A program made the translations under genes and the position numbers. The notes under the pieces were generated by a model that made no database searches, was not told the DNA's origin, and saw only the letters and a program-made list of their open reading frames with translations. A stretch of 64,000 nt of DNA from Mesorhizobium loti (GTDB lineage: Bacteria > Pseudomonadota > Alphaproteobacteria > Rhizobiales > Rhizobiaceae), in assembly GCA_014189435.1 (NCBI GenBank), contig CP050293.1, positions 191,001-255,000 on the forward strand. The letters run 5' to 3'. This document shows, in pieces, positions 5,235-59,600 of this stretch (its first letter is position 1; the number at the start of each line of letters is the position of its first letter).

Positions 5235-5864
5235 ATGCAGGGCGTCACCGTCGTCGACCATCCGCTTGTCCAGCACAAGCTGACCATCATGCGCAAGAAG
5301 GAAACCTCGACGGCGGGCTTCCGCCGGCTGCTGCGCGAAATATCGCTGCTGCTCGGCTACGAGGTCACGCGCAATCTCGAACTGACGACGACGACGATCG
5401 AAACGCCGATGGAAACCATGGAAGCGCCGACGCTGGAGGGCAAGAAGCTGGTCTTCGCCTCGGTGCTGCGCGCCGGCAACGGCTTGCTGGAAGGCCTGCT
5501 TGACCTGGTGCCGGCGGCCCGCGTCGCCCATGTCGGTCTCTACCGCGATCACGAAACGCTGGAAGCGGTCGAGTATTTCTTCAAGGCGCCAAGCGACCTC
5601 GCCGACCGGCTGGTGATCGTCGTCGATCCGATGCTGGCGACCGCCAATTCGGCGATCGCGGCGATCGACAAGCTGAAAGAGCGCGGCGCCACCAACATCC
5701 GTTTCCTTTGCCTGCTGGCCGCGCCCGAAGGCATCGAGCGCTTCACCAAGGCGCATCCGGACGTTCCCGTCTTCACCGCTTCGATCGACCGCCAGCTCAA
5801 CGAGAAGGGCTACATCATGCCCGGCCTCGGCGACGCCGGCGACCGCATGTACGGGACCAAGTAA
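5235..5864 (+). CDS. upp: uracil phosphoribosyltransferase
   Basis: Converts uracil plus PRPP to UMP. The 209 aa product matches the family in length, with [20 protein letters not shown] in the uracil/PRPP-binding centre and VVIVDP-type loop [20 protein letters not shown]. The C-terminal [11 protein letters not shown] is the standard uracil-binding tail. The ATG follows CAGGAGAACACC, giving a good ribosome binding site. A 146-base gap separates it from add, in which nothing distinct is seen. Together with cdd and the nucleoside transporter it completes a pyrimidine salvage route. Confidence 0.95.
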
Positions 5865-5959
5865 TTTACCAATTGTTTACGTAAAGGCGGGTTTCTGGCG
5901 CCCGTTAAAGCGGCAAACACCATCCGGGCTTAAAGATCGGCTCTCACGAAGGCCGAGCC

Positions 5960-6523
5960 ATGCTGCGCAAACTTCTCATCCTCGGTGTTTTCGCCGGTAC
6001 ATCGGCATCGATACCGATTGTGTACCAGTCGAATCCGCAATTCGTCGAAAACCTGCTGAAATCGGCATCGCCGGGCAAACCCGCGGTCGACGTCCAACCC
6101 AATGTCAACCTGGCATCGGTGCCCGACAAGCCGGCGGCATCGCTGCCGATGGGCCGCAAGGTCGTCGTTGCGGCAGACGAGCGCGGACATTTCTCGTCGG
6201 CCTTCAAGCTCAATGGACGTCAGATCGACGGCATGATCGACACCGGCGCCACGCTGGTCGCCATCAACACCTCGACGGCACGCAGAATCGGCCTGTCGTT
6301 GAACGCTTCCGACTTCAACCGTGAAGTCAGCACCGCCAACGGCACCATCAAGGCGGCCGTGGCCATGATCGACCGCCTGCAGATCGGCAACATCACGGTC
6401 AATGACGTCCAGACCATCGTACTCGACGACAAGGCGCTGCGCACGAATCTGATCGGTATGAGCTTCCTCAGCCGGCTCGACAAATATCAGGTCGAGAACG
6501 GCACGCTGCTGCTCATCCAGTAA
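5960..6523 (+). CDS. retropepsin-like aspartic protease family protein (clan AA)
   Basis: Small secreted or membrane-tethered aspartic protease-like protein of the type found in many alphaproteobacteria. Residues 1-20 form a hydrophobic signal or anchor (MLRKLLILGVFAG). The protease-like domain covers roughly residues 75-187 with the active-site triad sequence DTGAT in GMIDTGATLVAINTSTARR and a C-terminal LIGMSFLSRLDKYQV. The 187 aa length suits a single-lobe, dimerising retropepsin-like enzyme. Substrate is unknown. It ends convergently with deoA across a hairpin. Confidence 0.8.
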   Translation: MLRKLLILGVFAGTSASIPIVYQSNPQFVENLLKSASPGKPAVDVQPNVNLASVPDKPAASLPMGRKVVVAADERGHFSSAFKLNGRQIDGMIDTGATLVAINTSTARRIGLSLNASDFNREVSTANGTIKAAVAMIDRLQIGNITVNDVQTIVLDDKALRTNLIGMSFLSRLDKYQVENGTLLLIQ

Positions 6524-6551
6524 GGGCCTATTCGTTTTCCGCAATTCCCAA

Positions 6552-6575
6552 GGGAAAGCGCTATGCGCTTTTCCC
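6552..6575. terminator. hairpin between convergent protease gene and deoA
   Basis: GGGAAAGCGC-TAT-GCGCTTTTCCC forms a strong stem with one bulged base. It lies between two genes that end toward each other, so it can serve either strand. No long T tract follows on either side. Confidence 0.5.
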
Positions 6576-6610
6576 GGGGAGAACCGCTTCATACTTATCC
6601 TGGAATTGCT

Positions 6611-7930
6611 CTAGCCGCGTGGCAGAATCCGCCGGATGACCGACTTGTCCGCGGCCGGTTTCGAAGCGCCGACCGTATAGGCCGAGAGCACCGTGGCGGC
6701 CGCCGCCTCGGCATCGGCCAATGAGCGGGCATGGACCAGCGCCAACGGCTCGCCGGCGCGAACCTCGGCACCGACCGGCAACAGCCTGGTGATGCCGACC
6801 GCGGGGTCGATCTTGTCGTCCGGCCGCGTGCGTCCGCCTCCCAGGCCAACCACGGCGAGCCCGATGTCGCGGGTCGCGATGCCCGTGACGAAGCCATTCG
6901 CCGTCGCCTTGACGGCAAACTCGGTCGCCGCCGTGGCCAGGTATTTTTCCGGCTTCTCGATGAAATCAGCCGGGCCGCCGAGCACGGCAACCATGCGCGC
7001 GAAGGTGGCGGCGGCGCGGCCGCTGGTGAGCGTCTCTGTGGCACGCCGCATGCCGTCCTGATTGGACGACACCAGTCCCGCCGACTGCAGCATTTCGGCG
7101 GCCAGCGCCAGCGTCACATCCTCGAGCCGATGGTCACGAAAGCGTCCGGTGAGGAAATCAACGGCGTTGCGCACCTCGACGGCGTTGCCGGCGGCCGACG
7201 CCAGCGGCTCGTTCATGCCGGTGATCAACGCCGAGGCCTTCAGCCCGGCGCCATTGGCGATCTCGACCAGGCTGTTGGCGAGCGCGGTGGCGTCGCGCGA
7301 CTTTTCCATGAAGGCGCCGTTGCCGACCTTGACGTCGAGCACCAGCGATTGCAGCCCGGCCGCCAGCTTCTTCGACAGGATCGAAGCGGTGATCAGCGGC
7401 ACCGATTCGACCGTGCCGGTGACGTCGCGGATCGCATAGAGCCGTCGATCGGCCGGCGCGAGGTCGGCGGTCTGGCCGATGATGGCGCAGCCGGTTTCGA
7501 GCACCGCCTTGCGAAACAGCGCGATATCGGGCTGGCTGGTGTAGCCGGGGATCGCATCCATTTTGTCCAGCGTGCCGCCGGTGTGGCCAAGGCCACGGCC
7601 TGATATCATCGGCACATAAGCGCCGCATGCGGCGACGATCGGCGCCAGCATCAGCGAGACATTGTCGCCGACGCCGCCAGTCGAATGCTTGTCGGTGACC
7701 GGGCCGGGCAGATCCGACCAGTCGAGCACGTCACCGGAATCGCGCATCGCCAGCGTCAGCGCCACCGCCTCGTCGCGGTTCATGCCGTTGAAGAACACCG
7801 CCATGGCGAAGGCGCCGACCTGGCCATCCGAAACGGCCCCGCCGGTCAAGCCCTTTACAAAGTCGGCGATCTCCTGCTCCGACAGCCTCAGGCCGTCGCG
7901 CTTGCGGCGGATGATTTCCTGCGGAAGCAT
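6611..7930 (-). CDS. deoA: thymidine phosphorylase
   Basis: Phosphorolyses thymidine (and deoxyuridine) to base plus deoxyribose-1-phosphate. The 439 aa product starts MLPQEIIRRKRDGLRLS and has the family signature KHSTGGVGDNVSLMLAPIVA, then SGRGLGHTGGTLDKMDAIPG. A longer frame reaches 8206 but is out-of-frame punA sequence. The ATG at 7930 overlaps the punA stop as TGATG, showing translational coupling. It is the last gene of the nucleoside operon that starts at 12855. Confidence 0.95.
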   Translation of the reverse strand: MLPQEIIRRKRDGLRLSEQEIADFVKGLTGGAVSDGQVGAFAMAVFFNGMNRDEAVALTLAMRDSGDVLDWSDLPGPVTDKHSTGGVGDNVSLMLAPIVAACGAYVPMISGRGLGHTGGTLDKMDAIPGYTSQPDIALFRKAVLETGCAIIGQTADLAPADRRLYAIRDVTGTVESVPLITASILSKKLAAGLQSLVLDVKVGNGAFMEKSRDATALANSLVEIANGAGLKASALITGMNEPLASAAGNAVEVRNAVDFLTGRFRDHRLEDVTLALAAEMLQSAGLVSSNQDGMRRATETLTSGRAAATFARMVAVLGGPADFIEKPEKYLATAATEFAVKATANGFVTGIATRDIGLAVVGLGGGRTRPDDKIDPAVGITRLLPVGAEVRAGEPLALVHARSLADAEAAAATVLSAYTVGASKPAADKSVIRRILPRG

Positions 7931-51904: not shown

Positions 51905-52942
51905 ATGACGATCCCCTCCGAAATGAAGGCGCTGTTGCTGGTCGGCGACGGCTACACCAGGACGCCCAGCGGCAGTGTGCTGGAGGCGATGGAGCCCTAT
52001 CTCGAGCCGGGCAGCATCGCGGTGCCGACACCCGGACCGACGCAGGTGCTGATCAAGGTCAGCCTCGCCTCGATCAATCCGTCCGATGTCGCCTTCGTCA
52101 AGGGCCAGTACGGCCAGCCGCGCATCAAGGGCCAGCCGGCCGGTTTCGAGGGCGTCGGCATCGTCGTTGCCTGCGGTGACGAGCCCTATCCCAAAAGCCT
52201 GATCGGCAAACGCATTGCTTTTGCCACGGGCGTCACCAACTGGGGCTCATGGGCCGACTATGCCGTCGCCGAAGCTGCGGCCTGCATTCCGCTGCTCGAC
52301 ACGGTCCGCGACGAGGATGGCGCGGCGATGATCGTCAACCCGCTCACCGCGCTCGCCATGTTCGACATCGTCAAACAGGAAGGTGAAAAGGCCTTCGTCA
52401 TGACCGCCGGCGCCAGCCAGCTGTGCAAGCTGATCATCGGCCTGGCCAGGGAAGAGGGTTTCCGGCCAATCGTCACCGTGCGCCGCGACGATCAGATCGC
52501 GGCGCTGAAAGCGCTTGGCGCGGCGCACGTCCTCAATGAAAAGGCGCCGGATTTCAAGACGGCTTTGCGCGAGGTGATGAAGACCGAACAGCCGCGCATC
52601 TTCCTTGACGCGGTGACCGGGCCGCTGGCCTCGGCCATCTTCGACGCCATGCCGAAGCGGTCGCGCTGGATCATCTACGGGCGGCTCGATCCCGAAGCCA
52701 CTGTTATCCGCGAGCCCGGCCAGCTGATCTTCCAGCACAAGCATATCGAAGGTTTTTGGCTGAGCGAGTGGATGCGCCAGTTCCGCGACCGTCGCGGCCC
52801 GGCGATCCTGGAAGCGCAGAAGCGGTTTTCCGACGGACGCTGGTCGACCGATGTGACGGCGGTGGTGCCGCTTGCCGAAGCCATGGCGCGGCTGCCCGCC
52901 GAACTGGCCAAGCCCAACGGCAAGGTGTTCATCCGGCCGTAG
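51905..52942 (+). CDS. medium-chain dehydrogenase/reductase (quinone oxidoreductase-like)
   Basis: The 345 aa product is a zinc-independent MDR enzyme: ASINPSDVAFVKGQYGQPRI in the catalytic domain, GFEGVGIVVACGDEPYPKSL, then a Rossmann part with FVMTAGASQLCKLIIGLARE near residue 165 and GAAHVLNEKAPDF. No structural zinc cysteines are seen. AAGGAGTGTTCCG precedes the ATG. It follows the acyl-CoA dehydrogenase and probably reduces an enoyl or quinone-type substrate of the same pathway. Confidence 0.88.
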   Translation: MTIPSEMKALLLVGDGYTRTPSGSVLEAMEPYLEPGSIAVPTPGPTQVLIKVSLASINPSDVAFVKGQYGQPRIKGQPAGFEGVGIVVACGDEPYPKSLIGKRIAFATGVTNWGSWADYAVAEAAACIPLLDTVRDEDGAAMIVNPLTALAMFDIVKQEGEKAFVMTAGASQLCKLIIGLAREEGFRPIVTVRRDDQIAALKALGAAHVLNEKAPDFKTALREVMKTEQPRIFLDAVTGPLASAIFDAMPKRSRWIIYGRLDPEATVIREPGQLIFQHKHIEGFWLSEWMRQFRDRRGPAILEAQKRFSDGRWSTDVTAVVPLAEAMARLPAELAKPNGKVFIRP

Positions 52943-53160
52943 AGCGGTTCGAAAGACGCGGGAAGCTTGGATGCGACACCTTCAGAGGGCTTTCGACAGC
53001 GGGAGGAATGTCGGTATTTGGCCGTTGCCCGGATCGTCAAGCCGATGGCCGCGTCTTTCAGCCCCCTATGCCACGCCGCTTTGTCCGTGATATGCCGCCG
53101 CCATCGAATGCCGGGACAATGCTGGACTGAGCCAGTTCCGGGGTGGTGTGGGATGCCTTG

Positions 53161-54324
53161 ATGATGATTTCCAAGCCGGTTTTCGACCGTTTGGGGTTCT
53201 GCCTGTGGATCGGAGCGTTCCTGGTCGTTCTTGCCCTGGTCCTGTGGTCGCCGCACACGCGGACGGTATGGAAGGCCTATATAGGCGGCAGCGAGGCGCT
53301 TCTGGCCGGTCTGCCCCTCTACGACACCCAATCCGAGATGGGGTATCTCTACGCGCCGGCCTTTGCAGCGCTCTATATTCCAATCGTCAAACTCGGCCCG
53401 CATCTGGGCGGCGTGGTGTGGCACTCCCTTGGCTTCGCGGTGCTGACCTACGCCGCGATGCGGCAGGTGCGAAAGCTCGGCGGTGGCGAATTGATGTGGC
53501 TGCTTTCTTTCGGCCTTTTCCTCGCTTTGCCGATGGCGCTCGGCGCGATCCGCAACGGCCAGGCGACAGTCCTTTTGACCGGCGCCTGCTGGCTTCTCAC
53601 ATTGTCGGCGCTGGAAGGGCGGCGGGCGGAGACGTTCTTCTGGGCCTCGCTTGCCATCATCGCCAAGCCGACCGCGATTATCATGCTGTTGTTGGTAGGA
53701 GCCCTTCGGCTCCGGTTGATACCGGTGCTGGTGTTGGCGGTGCTGTTCGTGCTGGCGCTGCCTTACGCTTTCGCTCCCGCTGGCTATCTCAACGATCAGT
53801 ATCGTGTCTTCGCCCAGATGCTGACCTCCATGGCCGTCGACAACACCAGCCATTTCGTGCCCACCGATTTCACGGCGCCATTCACCGGAATGGGGCTGCC
53901 CATTCCGGAGTTCTGGGCAACCATCGTGCGTATGGTCGGGGCCCTGTTTACGCTTTCGGCGGTGCTCTGGTTCGACCGCAGGCTCGAACGCGGACCGGCA
54001 GGGCTGGCGATCTTCCTGACGGCCACTTTCTACATGTGCGTCTTCAACCCGCGCGTCGAGCCCAACACCTATGCGATGATTGCGGTGCCCGCCGGTCTCG
54101 CCATCGCGCTGTTGTGGCGCGAAGAACGAGGCGGCGTCCTCGCCTCGGTGCTGTCCACGGTGTTGTTTCTGACCGGGCTGAGCGGTGTCGAGCGCCATGT
54201 GCACGATTTCCTCTACCCCTGGTTCCGGCCGATCGCAGTTACGTTCATTGCCGGTACGCTGATCTGGTGGTTCTGGGCCAAGGCACGCGACAAGGTGGTG
54301 AATGCGGGGGTCGCAAATGGCTGA
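53161..54324 (+). CDS. GT87-type (DUF2029) membrane glycosyltransferase
   Basis: The 387 aa product has about ten membrane helices. It has a periplasmic-loop aspartate region in GLPLYDTQSEMGYLYAPAFA near residue 50, GAIRNGQATVLLTGACWLL, and IIAKPTAIIMLLLVGAL, all in the style of polyprenyl-phosphate-sugar-dependent GT-C enzymes of family GT87. Such enzymes transfer sugar from a lipid carrier to an acceptor on the periplasmic side. ATG 53161 or 53164 is preferred; GTG 53143 is an alternative. It overlaps the next gene by eight bases. Confidence 0.82.
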   Translation: MMISKPVFDRLGFCLWIGAFLVVLALVLWSPHTRTVWKAYIGGSEALLAGLPLYDTQSEMGYLYAPAFAALYIPIVKLGPHLGGVVWHSLGFAVLTYAAMRQVRKLGGGELMWLLSFGLFLALPMALGAIRNGQATVLLTGACWLLTLSALEGRRAETFFWASLAIIAKPTAIIMLLLVGALRLRLIPVLVLAVLFVLALPYAFAPAGYLNDQYRVFAQMLTSMAVDNTSHFVPTDFTAPFTGMGLPIPEFWATIVRMVGALFTLSAVLWFDRRLERGPAGLAIFLTATFYMCVFNPRVEPNTYAMIAVPAGLAIALLWREERGGVLASVLSTVLFLTGLSGVERHVHDFLYPWFRPIAVTFIAGTLIWWFWAKARDKVVNAGVANG

Positions 54325-55306
54325 GTTGCGGCTGACCCTCGATATCGTCGCGCCGTTCTTCAACGAGGCGCCATCGGCATCGGCATTTGCCAAACTGCTC
54401 GGTGAGCTCGAAGCGGCCGTGGCACAGCGCTTCGGCATGACCGTGCACAAGATCCTGGTCGATGACGGCAGCCGTGACGATGGCGCCGGGCGGTTTTCGC
54501 AGGCACTGACGGGGTCGTGGGAGATCGTCCGCCTCAGCCGCAATTTCGGCAAGGAAGTCGCTGTGCTCGCTGGTCTCGACCAGTCGCGCGGCGACATGGT
54601 GCTGATCATGGACGCCGACCTCCAGCATTCCCTGGACATCAGCCTGAAGCTGATCGCCGAGCTGGTGGACCATCCGGACATCGACGTCGTCTATGCGCAG
54701 AACGACCGCCGCGAGGCGAGCTGGCGGCGCAGCCAGCTGGCCCGGCTTTTCTACAGCCTGATCAACTCAAGCCAGCGTTTCGACATTCCCGAAAATGCCG
54801 GCGACTTTCGCGTCATGCGCGGCGCTGTGGCGCGCGCGCTCACCAGCCTGCGCGACAAGCGGCGCTTCAACAAGGGTCTTTTTGCCTGGGCGGGCTTTCG
54901 CCAGAAGGCATTGCCCTATTCGCCGGAAGGCCGCGCCAGCGGCACGTCGAAGTGGAGCCGGCTCAACCTGATCGCCTTCTCGCTGGAGGGTTTCACCTCG
55001 TTCTCCGTCATTCCGCTCAGGCTGATCAGCTTGAGCGGGTTGCTCGCGGCGTTGGCCGGCGTGGTCTACGGCGCCAAGGTGTTCTTCGAGGTGATCTTTT
55101 ACGGCATTGCAGTTCCGGGCTACCCCAGCCTGCTGGTCGCCGTCGTCCTGCTCGGCGGCCTCAACCTGACCCTGCTTGGCCTGATCGGCGAATATGTCTG
55201 GGTCACGCTCAGCGAGAGCAAGGATCGGCCGGTCTATCTCGTGCGCGATGTCGTGCGCAGCGACGTCTCCGCTGACAGGCCGGAGCCGGGCGCTTCCGAC
55301 AGATGA
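54317..55306 (+). CDS. GT2 polyprenyl-phosphate glycosyltransferase (GtrB/ArnC-like)
   Basis: Loads a sugar onto undecaprenyl (or longer) phosphate at the cytoplasmic face. The 329 aa product has LDIVAPFFNEAPSASAFAKL, VDDGSRDDG, the metal site LIMDADLQHS (DAD) near residue 97, ENAGDFRVMRGAVARAL, and NKGLFAWAGFRQ. Two C-terminal helices (LISLSGLLAALAGVVYGAKV, SLLVAVVLLGGLNLTLLGLI) anchor it. GGGGGTCGCAA precedes ATG 54317. It overlaps both neighbours, so the four-gene set is one operon. Confidence 0.9.
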   Translation: MAELRLTLDIVAPFFNEAPSASAFAKLLGELEAAVAQRFGMTVHKILVDDGSRDDGAGRFSQALTGSWEIVRLSRNFGKEVAVLAGLDQSRGDMVLIMDADLQHSLDISLKLIAELVDHPDIDVVYAQNDRREASWRRSQLARLFYSLINSSQRFDIPENAGDFRVMRGAVARALTSLRDKRRFNKGLFAWAGFRQKALPYSPEGRASGTSKWSRLNLIAFSLEGFTSFSVIPLRLISLSGLLAALAGVVYGAKVFFEVIFYGIAVPGYPSLLVAVVLLGGLNLTLLGLIGEYVWVTLSESKDRPVYLVRDVVRSDVSADRPEPGASDR

Positions 55307-56124
55307 CGCGGCGCATCCGCCTGATCGCCGACGATTATGGCCTGGCGCCCGGCGTTTCCGCTGCGATTCTCGACCTGCTTGATCGTGGGCGGTTGACAGG
55401 CACCAGTTGCATGACCGGCTTTCCGGAATGGGCTGATGAGGCGGCGCGCATAAAACCTCTATGCGGCCGCGTCGCGGTCGGGCTGCATCTCACCTTGACC
55501 GACCAGCCAGCCGTCACCGGCCGGTCGAGCCTGGCGCCGGAAGGCCGGCTGCCGCCGCTCCGCTCGCTGGGACTGCCTGTCCTGCGCGGCCGCATCGACG
55601 ATCGCGATATCCATGCCGAGCTCGACGCCCAGTACAGCCGCTTCGTCGAAGCACTCGAGCGCCGCCCCGATTTCGTCGACGGGCATCAGCATGTGCATTT
55701 CCTTCCCGTCGTGCGCACATGGCTGCGCGCGCGCTTTGGCCCGGGAAGCGACAGGCCGGCGCTGCGCGGCGCCCCGGCACTGGCGGGCCAATTCGCCTCG
55801 GTGCCGAAAATCGCCGCGATTGCGGCGCTGGCTGCCGGCTTCAACCGGTCGATGCAGCGCGCCGGCTTCACCCTTTTCGAGCCGCTCACCGGCATCTATG
55901 ACTGGCGGCAACCCGAAAAATTCGCTTCCGTGCTGCAGGCCGCCGTCGAGGCATTGCCGGAACGCGGGTTGTTCATGTGCCACCCTGGCCATGTTGACGA
56001 AACGCTGCGCGCGCGCGACACGATGCAAGGCGTGCGCGAGGTCGAATTCGCGGCCCTGGCATCGGACGCGTTCGGCGCCAGTCTGGCCCGCGCCGGTGTC
56101 GCAATCATGGATGGCAGGGGATGA
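55303..56124 (+). CDS. ChbG/HpnK (YdjC-family) carbohydrate deacetylase
   Basis: Metal-dependent N-deacetylase of acetylated amino sugars. The 273 aa product has the ADDYGL motif (metal Asp) at residues 8-13, VGLHLTLTDQP, the metal-binding DGHQHVHFLPVV near residue 127 and a C-terminal LFMCHPGHVDE. In this operon it probably deacetylates a lipid-linked HexNAc, as NaxD does in Francisella. It overlaps both the GT2 gene and the GtrA gene by four bases. Substrate is inferred from context. Confidence 0.88.
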   Translation: MTRRIRLIADDYGLAPGVSAAILDLLDRGRLTGTSCMTGFPEWADEAARIKPLCGRVAVGLHLTLTDQPAVTGRSSLAPEGRLPPLRSLGLPVLRGRIDDRDIHAELDAQYSRFVEALERRPDFVDGHQHVHFLPVVRTWLRARFGPGSDRPALRGAPALAGQFASVPKIAAIAALAAGFNRSMQRAGFTLFEPLTGIYDWRQPEKFASVLQAAVEALPERGLFMCHPGHVDETLRARDTMQGVREVEFAALASDAFGASLARAGVAIMDGRG

Positions 56125-56531
56125 GCGACGCCGAGCGGCCCCAGCGTTCGACCGGCAACAAGATCGTCCGCTTTGCCATTGTCGGACTTGCCAACACAGC
56201 CATCGACCTTGCCAGCTTCTTCCTGCTGCTCAAGCTCGGGGTTTTGCCGCTACCCGCCAACATCGCTGCCTGGTTCATCGCCGTCACCTTCTCGTTCGCG
56301 GCGAACGGCTTCTGGTCGTTCGAGCGCAATCGAGCCATCCGGCTGCGTGACGCGTTCCTTCGCTTCGCCTCGCTTGGGGGGCTGATTTCGCTCGGCGTCT
56401 CCAGCCTTTCGATCGCGCTGTTCGCCGGCATCGCCGGGGTGTGGCCGGCAAAGATCGGCGGTGTCGTGGTGGCGGCAGTGCTGAATTTCCTTGCCGCGCG
56501 CTGGTCGATCGAAGGCCGGTTGCTGAAGTAG
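56121..56531 (+). CDS. GtrA-family membrane protein (putative lipid-linked sugar flippase)
   Basis: The 136 aa product has four membrane helices with FAIVGLANTAIDLASFFLLL near the N-terminus, IAAWFIAVTFSFAANGFWSF, FASLGGLISLGVSSLSIALF and VVAAVLNFLAARW. This is the GtrA/DPMS-associated pattern. GtrA proteins are thought to flip polyprenyl-phosphate sugars to the periplasm. It is the last gene of the GT87-GT2-deacetylase-GtrA operon. Confidence 0.9.
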   Translation: MSDAERPQRSTGNKIVRFAIVGLANTAIDLASFFLLLKLGVLPLPANIAAWFIAVTFSFAANGFWSFERNRAIRLRDAFLRFASLGGLISLGVSSLSIALFAGIAGVWPAKIGGVVVAAVLNFLAARWSIEGRLLK

Positions 56532-56600
56532 CGCGGAAAACCGCCACACACTTTCCTGGAATGTCTCTATTCCGCCGGCTCTACATCTGGACCTGATCCA

Positions 56601-56646
56601 ACCATGATCTTTCCGAAAACCGGTTCCCACTTTTCGGGATCATGGT
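56601..56646. repeat. rhizobial intergenic palindromic repeat
   Basis: ACCATGAT (56601-56608) and ATCATGGT (56639-56646) enclose CTTTCCGAAAACCGGTTCCC and ACTTTTCGGG. It shares its core with the copies at 15.7 and 16.5 kb. Its right end covers the stop codon of the RND transporter gene. Confidence 0.7.
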
Positions 56647-59600
56647 CTGGTGTAGGCGGCTTCCTCGAGCTCGCGTTTCAGCCGCGCTTCCTCATGGGTT
56701 TTCGGCGTGACAAAGCGGCCAAGCAGGAGATAGGCGACCGGCGTCAGGAACAGCGTCGAGACGGTGGCCAGCCCCAGTCCGCCAACGATGACCCAGCCAA
56801 GTGCGACGCGCGCCTCGGCACCAGCGCCGCTCGCCAGCACCAGCGGCAAGCCGCCGAGTACGGTACAGATCATCGTCATCATCACCGGCCGCACGCGGAT
56901 GATCGAGGCCTGTTCGATCGCCTCGCGCACGCCAAGCCCGCGATCGCGCAGCTGGTTGGCGAATTCGACGATGAGGATGCCGTTCTTGGCCATGACGCCG
57001 ACCAGCAGCACCAGGCCGATCTGGCTGTAGGCGTTGAGACTGGTGCCCGAGAGCAGCAAGGCGAAAATCGCGCAGGCGAGACCGAGCGGCACCGTCGCCA
57101 TGATGATGACGGCGCTGACGAAGCTTTCGAACTGGGCGGCCAGCACCAACAGGATGATGACCAGCGCGAAGCCGAAGATGGTGACCATGGCGCTGTTGGT
57201 CTCGCCCAGCGTCGTCGCCTCGGCCAACGGCAGGATGCGGCTGCCGGCGGGCAGCAGCGGCGTGGCGATCTCCTCGGCGCGGGTCAGCGCATCGCCCAGC
57301 GCGAAGTCGCCACTGAGGTTGGAGGTGATGGCCACTGAAGGCTGCTGCTGTTCGCGCGATAGCGATGGCGGCACGGCACGTTCGGTCAGCGTGGCGATGG
57401 CCGACATCGGCACGAAGCGTCCGTCTGATGTTTTCAGGAAGATGTTTTCCAGATCCGTCGGATCGTTGATCGGATTGGTGGTCGAGACCAGCTTCACCCC
57501 ATAGCTGCGGTCGGCAATGTAGACGTCGACGACGTCGTTGCCGTCGAGCATGACCTGCAAGGTGTTGGCCAGCCCTGATATGTCGATGCCAAGATCGGAG
57601 GCGCGCTCGCGATCGATGGCCACCGCCAGCTGCGGCTGCGTCGGGTCGATGGACAGGCGCGGTGTCTGGAAACGCGGGTCCTTCTGCATCTCGGCGATGA
57701 TCTTCACGGCCGCGTCGCCAAGCGCCTTGCGGTCGTTGCCGACCAGCGCGAACTGCAGGCCGTTGCCGGCGCCGCGGATGCCGAGGCTGTTGGGCTGCAC
57801 CGGGAAGATGCGCACGCTCGGCACCTGTTTGGTCAGCCGGCTGATCTCGGCCATGATCTCCTGCTGGCTGCGGCTGCGCTCGTTCCACGGCGCCAGCGTC
57901 ATCACCATGAAGCCGGAATTGTAGGAGCCGTTCTGGCCGGCGTTCTCGAAGGTGCTGCGGATCTCGCCGGAATCGCGCATCGGCTGGATCAGCTTCTCGA
58001 TCTTCTGCATCTGCTGGGTGGTGTAGTCGAGGCTGACGCCTTGCGGGGCGCTGATGCGCAACAGCACGGCGGCGCGGTCCTCGGTCGGTGTCAGTTCCTG
58101 GCGGATGGTGCCGAACAGGGTGAAGGCGATGCCGGCAAACAGCACCGCGACCAGAAGCACGATCCATGGCGCGTCGAGGCAGGCATGCAGGGCGCGCTTG
58201 TAGGCTGTGTTAAGCGCGCCACCGATGCGGGCGCCGATGCCGTGGCCGCCTTCGTGGTGGAGGGACGCGCTGGTCAGCATGCGCGAAGCGAGCATCGGGC
58301 AAAGTGTGAGCGCCACCACGCAGGACAAAAGCACCGACATGGCAAGCACGAAGCCGAATTCGCGGAACAGCCCACCGGTCTGGCCAGGCAGGAAGGAGAT
58401 CGGCACGAAGACGGCGACCAGCGTCAAGGTGGTGGCAATGACGGCGAAAAACACTTCCTGCGCACCGAGCACGGCGGCGGCGCGGGGCCCCATGCCTAGG
58501 TTGCGTCGTCGCACGATGTTTTCGAGCACGACGATGGCGTCGTCGACGACCAGTCCCGTCGCCAGCACCAGGGCAAGCAGGGTCAGGATGTTGACCGAGA
58601 AGCCAGCCAGATAGATGGCGGCGATCGTGCCGATCATGGCGACCGGCATCGACAGGCCGGGGATCAGCGTCGCGCGCCAGTCGAGCAGAAATACATAGAT
58701 GACGATCAGCACCATGGTCACGGACAGACCAAGCGCGATCTCGACCTCGTGCACCGCGCCCTTGACGAAGACCGCGTCGTCGCTGGTGATCTTGATCGAC
58801 ATGCCCTTGGGCAGGTTTTCCTGCAGCTTGGCGACGGCGGCCTGGACGCCGGTCGAGATGTCCAGAGTGTTCGATTCCGCCTGGCGGATGATGCCGATGC
58901 CAATGCCGGTCTTGCCATCCGAACGCAGCGTGGTCTGGCCGACGTCGGGGCCGAGCGTGACAGTGGCGACGTCGCGGATGCGCGTCGTGCCGCCGACGAT
59001 GATGTTTTCGAATTCTTCCGGCGTTGTGACATCGGCGGTGGTGCGGACGATCAGATCCTGGTTGGTCGTGGTGATCGATCCGGCGGGCGAATCGAAGGCG
59101 ACCGAGGCAAGTGCTGTCCTGAGGTCGGCAACGGTGAAGCCGAGGCTGGCGAGCTTGTTCTGGTCGACGTCGATGCGGAAGATCTTGTCGCGGTCGCCAT
59201 AGACCTGGACGTCGGCAACGCCGGGCACGGCGGCCAACTCGTCCTCGATCTGGTCCTGGACCACCACGGTCATGTCCTGGATCGACATGTTGTCCGAGGT
59301 CACCGCCAGTCGCATCACTGCGTCGGAATTGGCATCGGCCTTGACGATGCGCGGTGGATCGGCGGTGTCCGGCATCTGGTTGGCGACGCGGCCGACGGCA
59401 TCACGCACGTCCGAGGCGGCGACATTGAGGTCGACGCCGTCGTTGAACTCGATGGTCACGCGGCTCGAGCCGAATGAGGAAGACGACGAGATCGACTTGA
59501 CGCCGGAGACCCGGGCGACGGCGCCCTCGATCGTGTCGGTCAGTTCGCGGTCGACGGTTTCGGCAGCCGCCCCTTCGAAGGCGGTGGAAACAGTGACGAC

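Follow-up and report, generated by a model that had tools for sequence, protein, structure and literature searches.

In a 64,000-nucleotide stretch of the genome of Mesorhizobium loti, a bacterium of soil and root nodules (contig CP050293.1, positions 191,001 to 255,000; hereafter the window; whole genome 8.33 Mb in 3 contigs), we analysed four consecutive genes encoding a membrane protein of family GT87, a GT2 glycosyltransferase, a YdjC-family deacetylase and a small GtrA-family membrane protein (Table 1). A Pfam scan of the window's open reading frames placed each of the four proteins above the cut-off of its own family. The genes overlap: GT87 and GT2 share 8 or 23 bases, depending on the start chosen for GT2, and the GT2/YdjC and YdjC/GtrA pairs share 4 bases each (ATGA). 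For GT87 we retained the ATG at 53161, although a GTG upstream at 53143 is possible, since the former fits the length of 387-388 amino acids (aa) of most near relatives (a few, e.g. P0007, have 393 aa); the database protein P0001 (387 aa) begins at this same ATG. The run of overlapping genes that a first-pass annotation had described at 53161..56531 is therefore confirmed.

Table 1. Genes of the operon in the window.
Gene product	Position	Strand	Remarks
GT-C membrane glycosyltransferase, family GT87, 387 aa	53161..54324	+	divergent subfamily; proposed periplasmic transferase
GtrB/PgfS-like GT2 polyprenyl-phosphate sugar synthase	54302..55306	+	DxD = D104-x-D106; alternative start 54317
YdjC-family N-deacetylase, predicted cytosolic	55303..56124	+	Pfam PF04794, 160.6 bits
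GtrA-family small membrane protein, putative lipid-linked-sugar flippase	56121..56531	+	Pfam PF04138, 66.5 bits

Conservation of the gene set and its putative donor-forming proteins

We scanned the window YdjC protein against genome records, which yielded at least 80 loci (L002-L081) whose genes were read as stop-to-stop frames. Among the first 50 (L002-L051), 49 had GT87, GT2, YdjC and GtrA in the same order on one strand, so that the arrangement is not due to chance; this was the genomic survey that the first-pass annotation had proposed as a check. Both 4-base overlaps downstream of GT2 (ATGA, GTGA or TTGA) were found in all 49. The sole exception, L049, carries GT2-YdjC-GtrA with a PMT_2 enzyme replacing GT87, and the remaining 30 listed loci (L052-L081) had no GT87 of this kind. 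The link between GT2 and YdjC extends further, with GT2 at most 400 bp from YdjC in 96 of 102 loci (L002-L081, L112-L131, L171 and L172, including a few duplicates, as the L049 and L051 modules are those of L114 and L130, respectively); the loci without it were L054, L060, L063, L071, L127 and L129. At family level, 43 of 297 genomes had a YdjC match (E 0.001), many of them weak, which indicates a patchy distribution of the module beyond the genus. YdjC-like matches interrupted by stop codons occurred in two genomes of this family (L107, L109). In Methylobacterium, Microvirga and their kin, YdjC lies beside an opposite-strand GT2, next to a multi-span membrane protein of ~509-571 aa (L052 at 5259-6785, L053, L055, L057, L058, L061, L067, L068, L070, L072, L073, L075, L077); at L052, the only one of these loci scanned for it, this protein was MurJ (360 bits).

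The window GT2 protein scored 73.3 bits against Pfam PF00535 (Glycos_transf_2; cut-off 23.3). Its closest solved structure was PDB 5ekp (sll0501, which we take to be the GtrB of the published structure), with E 5.7e-60 over residues 10-317, followed by ArnC 9hwj (E 8.1e-25). It is of GtrB type, combining full-length similarity to GtrB with a GT2 domain whose DxD aspartates were each kept in 104 of 105 sequences. The YdjC protein, far above the Pfam cut-off of 29.7 and the sole YdjC match in its genome, has six residues (D10, D11, H62, H128, H130 and H227), presumably those of the metal site, each conserved in 109-111 of 111 sequences, and alignment with 7vi8 and 2i5i revealed the same Asp and His motifs. 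Its N-terminus, MTRRIRLIADDYG, read by eye, has no visible signal peptide; together with the tie to the GT2 gene, this points to cytosolic deacetylation before flipping. The genome has 4 GtrA matches, among them the protein of the operon (cut-off of the GtrA_DPMS_TM model, 26.1).

The GT87 protein and its missing aspartate

The first protein of the operon matched the GT87 Pfam model at 40.4 bits (cut-off 25), covering the entire model (1-237), and its predicted structure takes the PimE fold and qualifies as GT-C. Sequence searches of the PDB were less informative: neither the window protein alone nor an ordinary Rhizobiales GT87 had any match, and a profile of the GT87 subfamily retrieved only designed helical repeats (E 0.007). 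We aligned 39 members of this subfamily (the window protein, 34 of the 120 listed homologues, and L048, L051, L167 and L168) with ordinary Rhizobiales GT87s from 22 of 26 loci (L141-L166, of which L141, L143, L157 and L163 failed a length and hydropathy filter), leaving out the weak GT87 matches L169 and L170. The catalytic aspartate at the apex of JM1, at the place of D58 in PimE, was absent from the subfamily, where all 39 sequences had Ser/Thr35-Val36, whereas two of three MAFFT modes placed an Asp there in all 22 ordinary GT87s; genafpair, the remaining mode, misaligned the JM1 region. This assignment is based on the alignment to ordinary GT87s and on the text of the PimE paper, not on a residue-level overlay on PimE. 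A local-mode hhalign comparison of the subfamily with the ordinary GT87s reported only columns 63-350.

Nine residues were invariant in the 39 subfamily sequences (Y40, Y64, R131, Q134, K169, D236, R298, E300 and T303), with R298 and E300 standing in an NPRVExNT stretch. In the PimE study, the phosphate-site residues of this enzyme are K195 and Q163 (PMC12041525), and, from the order of the motifs, K169 and Q134 are their likely counterparts; in the ordinary GT87s, the K169 column held K in 21 of 22 sequences and the Q134 column Q in 13, H in 8 and N in 1. The same study describes PimE, a mycobacterial GT87 mannosyltransferase, as dependent on D58, since both D58A and D58N abolish activity (PMC12041525), whereas the subfamily has Ser/Thr-Val at this place, plus the invariant R298 and E300. 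The window protein stays, on its predicted model, a GT87-fold protein for which we do not claim normal GT87 chemistry. A deep GT87 relative in genome G906 (L200, 2579-4747 of a 4.8-kb contig) has an Asp at position 35, five residues N-terminal to the conserved Tyr, in which case the aspartate would have been lost en route to the Mesorhizobium and Kaistia enzymes. We offer tentatively, and as a rather unlikely scenario, that the lineage of the Asp-less subfamily dropped the general base, either because the acceptor would be an ionised phosphate (that at position 4' of lipid A or another) or because the base would have moved to E300 or D236 and R298 would hold the acceptor.

Exchange of the last enzyme across lineages

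The loci of the family that lack GT87 (n=19; L049, L112-L129) provided a comparison with the window operon. Seventeen of them encode a GT-C-like protein of ~500-570 aa at most 5.5 kb from YdjC (absent from L127 and L129), recognised by scores of at least 372 against a query set that itself included four of them. All eight of the proteins scanned against PMT_2, an ArnT-like superfamily, exceeded its cut-off; seven came from these loci and one from L056. At eight loci (L118-L121, L123-L125, L128), PMT_2, GT2 and YdjC lie on one strand and GtrA was not found at the locus; the flippase may there be lost, diverged or encoded elsewhere.

With the GT87 subfamily profile (E 1e-10) we also searched two sets of genomes, one from the order (n=397) and one from the class (n=385). 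The subfamily was present in 16 of the former, nine from the genus of the window and seven from one other genus, including Kaistia dalseonensis, K. adipata and Kaistia sp. 32K; class-wide, besides the genome of the window itself, a relative was found in 1 of 385 genomes (G906, the L200 protein). In all 16 genomes of the order a GT87 copy adjoins GT2-YdjC-GtrA, in two different layouts: a contiguous operon in the nine of the window's genus (the window, L083-L086, L193, L201-L203), and, in the seven others (L171, L172, L195-L199), a convergent GT87 that meets GtrA tail to tail. A tree of the donor module, built from the joined YdjC and GT2 sequences (47 rows; L127, having no GT2, was dropped), placed the PMT_2-bearing modules of the family in the same clade as those of Mesorhizobium and Corticibacterium, with Kaistia apart. 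This tree requires two GT87 changes, and its starred branches force two; L056 was labelled 'other' in it despite its PMT_2 protein, which leaves the GT87 count unaffected, and the tree program flagged the deep join as a meeting point of long branches. The fewest forced PMT_2 changes were one, so that PMT_2 may or may not have been the earlier partner within the family. The two forced GT87 changes imply that one kind of GT87 joined the donor module twice, in separate lineages, and this repeated pairing is good evidence for GT87 acting on that donor. The exchangeable part of the system is thus its GT-C partner: PMT_2 in sister genera, and one GT87 subfamily in Mesorhizobium and Corticibacterium and, separately, in Kaistia. 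What is new is the GT87 partner and its missing aspartate.

The surroundings of the window operon consist of a zinc-type alcohol dehydrogenase on the 5' side, ending at 52942 (47 of the 49 four-gene loci also contain a homologue), and an AcrB-type resistance-nodulation-division (RND) pump on the opposite strand on the 3' side. A promoter scan of 52900-56700 found no sigma-70-like promoter, and the same region had one terminator-like site, fewer than shuffled sequence. Between the end of the operon and the convergent RND gene lies a palindromic intergenic repeat (56602-56645), whose 25-base core (56613-56637) occurs 22 times in the genome with at most 2 mismatches (reversed control, 0).

Proposed pathway, acceptor and alternatives

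We propose that the operon encodes a three-component periplasmic glycosylation system, made of a GtrB-type synthase, a GtrA-type flippase and a GT-C transferase, with a built-in deacetylase and a periplasmic acceptor, a reading to which we give a probability of about 0.65. GT2 would load an N-acetylhexosamine (HexNAc), either N-acetylglucosamine (GlcNAc) or N-acetylgalactosamine, from uridine diphosphate-HexNAc onto polyprenyl phosphate at the cytosolic face, and YdjC would strip the acetyl group ahead of flipping. GtrA, judging from its family, would aid the crossing of the membrane by the resulting polyprenyl-phosphate-hexosamine (HexN), and GT87, with its predicted PimE fold, would transfer the HexN, on the periplasmic side, to a single envelope acceptor, leaving a free amine at the surface. 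Our first guess for the likeliest acceptor is lipopolysaccharide (LPS), through a core sugar or through a lipid A phosphate with a bond lost in acid. The proposal draws on gene content, overlaps, linkage, residue conservation, predicted fold and lineage swap, all computed here, and the sequence of polyprenyl-phosphate-HexNAc formation, cytosolic deacetylation, flipping and GT-C transfer is likely, given the families, active-site residues and linkage. The first-pass annotation had followed the same logic; the GT2-YdjC linkage, the near-invariant YdjC and GT2 residues and the PimE fold support it, but they do not tell which HexNAc is used or what the acceptor is.

Several observations weigh against this pathway. 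The sugar handled by GT2 is not readable from its sequence, which lies far below every listed NCBIfam equivalog cut-off (none was exceeded, the best being PgfS with 191 bits against 500). Transfer by GT87 is not to be assumed, since the aspartate essential in PimE is absent, and the genome has a weak second GT87 match elsewhere (27 bits). In addition, 11 of the 19 GT87-less loci had no GtrA in a phmmer search with the window protein, which a distant one could escape, as compared with 8 in which it was found. Subfamily members also occur apart from the module: genome G554 has two extra Asp-less copies (L192:6132-7364, L194:1448-2692) with no GT2, YdjC or GtrA on the stretches taken, and L200 has no partner gene on its short contig.

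Comparable systems are known, although with other last enzymes. In Francisella, FlmF2, NaxD and FlmK are a GT2 synthase, a YdjC-type deacetylase and a GT-C transferase, respectively; FlmK and Bordetella LgmB are ArnT-type, and the last enzymes of the Shigella Gtr and Gram-positive CsbB/GtcA/YfhO systems are not GT87 either. The Francisella parallel is consequently functional only, with an ArnT-type last enzyme and a known lipid A acceptor on one side and a GT87 without the catalytic aspartate on the other. The claim that the window operon does the same as FlmF2, NaxD and FlmK, which put galactosamine on lipid A, therefore stands for the GT2-YdjC pair, present in both (PMC4688374, PMC8149597), and not for the last step, which here belongs to GT87 instead of an ArnT-type PMT_2 enzyme. 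Shigella GtrA/GtrB/Gtr(type) and CsbB/GtcA/YfhO likewise combine a synthase, a flippase and an extracytoplasmic transferase with its own specificity; unlike the window operon, no deacetylase is named for them in the available portions of the sources (PMC7389260, PMC3259042).

Among the alternatives, placement of the amino sugar on the 4'-phosphate of lipid A, as in Francisella and Bordetella, survives best, though we hold it doubtful. A phosphate nucleophile requires no general base, so that the missing GT87 aspartate would suit it. In Bordetella, where the acceptor (the lipid A phosphates) has been demonstrated, three genes, lgmA, lgmB and lgmC, are described as required for the glucosamine (GlcN) modification of B. 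pertussis lipid A, lgmD not being essential (PMC4993483), and LgmB as an inner-membrane enzyme attaching GlcN to phosphates (PMC11401268). Mesorhizobium lipid A does carry a 4'-phosphate; however, the published structure from M. loti MAFF303099, P-4-GlcNN-GlcNN-GalA, has this phosphate partly methylated and no further amino sugar (PMC4103559), and the same backbone is given for the type strain M. huakuii IFO 15243 (PMC5644692). All four genes are present in the record of M. huakuii NBRC 15243 (L020). NBRC 15243 and IFO 15243 are presumably one strain, in which the operon would then coexist with a lipid A without extra HexN. Release of the M. loti lipid A involved 2.5 h in 0.6% acetic acid at 105 C, a treatment that would likely cleave a sugar phosphodiester and could have removed a phosphate-linked HexN. 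If the product were an acid-labile amino-sugar phosphodiester destroyed by the standard work-up, this would explain its absence from the published Mesorhizobium lipid A. The lipid A target proposed in the first-pass annotation is thus weakened and somewhat disfavoured, not refuted. Glucosamine was measured in the LPS polysaccharide of M. loti NZP2213, by a method that does not separate GlcN from GlcNAc (PMC6274867); since the method N-acetylates, any free-amine state would be hidden. LPS core and lipid A phosphate are both possible as acceptors.

It is less probable still that GT87 is not a transferase, acting in lipid-sugar handling or as a partner subunit while a PMT_2 enzyme encoded elsewhere (the genome has three such genes outside the operon) carries out the transfer. 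The nine invariant residues are unlike a decaying active site, and in sister genera a PMT_2 enzyme accompanies the module in place of GT87. A membrane phospholipid as acceptor, giving an amino-sugar glycerophospholipid, appears improbable. In its favour, the Pseudomonas aeruginosa proteins GpgS, GpgD and GpgF, a glycosyltransferase, a deacetylase and a putative flippase from one predicted operon, make GlcN-phosphatidylglycerol, a zwitterionic amino-sugar lipid, by glycosyltransfer and deacetylation (PMC12713373); but these belong to families other than the four found here (GT4, COG3233 deacetylase and YbhN-like), and the sugar goes straight onto the phospholipid, no polyprenyl carrier step being described in the part of the source available (PMC12713373). 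A deacetylase serving chitooligosaccharide breakdown (ChbG), with glycosyltransferase neighbours by chance, is very improbable: chitin disaccharide deacetylase (NF002559) was the best partial NCBIfam match of YdjC, at 81.7 bits against a cut-off of 227, and the 4-base overlaps and GT2 linkage reported above speak against it. Least probable is a hopanoid head-group pathway (HpnK and its glycosyltransferase), as the HpnK model (TIGR03473) covers most of the length of YdjC but reached 62 bits against a cut-off of 232.6, and the genome had no hopene cyclase match at E 0.001, a weak control since 2 of 14 control genomes matched, none above cut-off.

Our search of titles and abstracts, within limited listings, found no description of a cationic surface sugar made by such a Mesorhizobium operon. 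If the proposed glycosylation pathway is true, an operon common in Mesorhizobium makes such a sugar, in bacteria whose LPS is perceived by legumes, and the possible acid lability is a concrete ground for re-examining mesorhizobial lipid A without acid. The swap of PMT_2 and GT87 on the same donor cassette amounts to a natural experiment on acceptor choice, and the Asp-less subfamily offers a test of whether every GT-C enzyme needs the aspartate or just those with hydroxyl acceptors.

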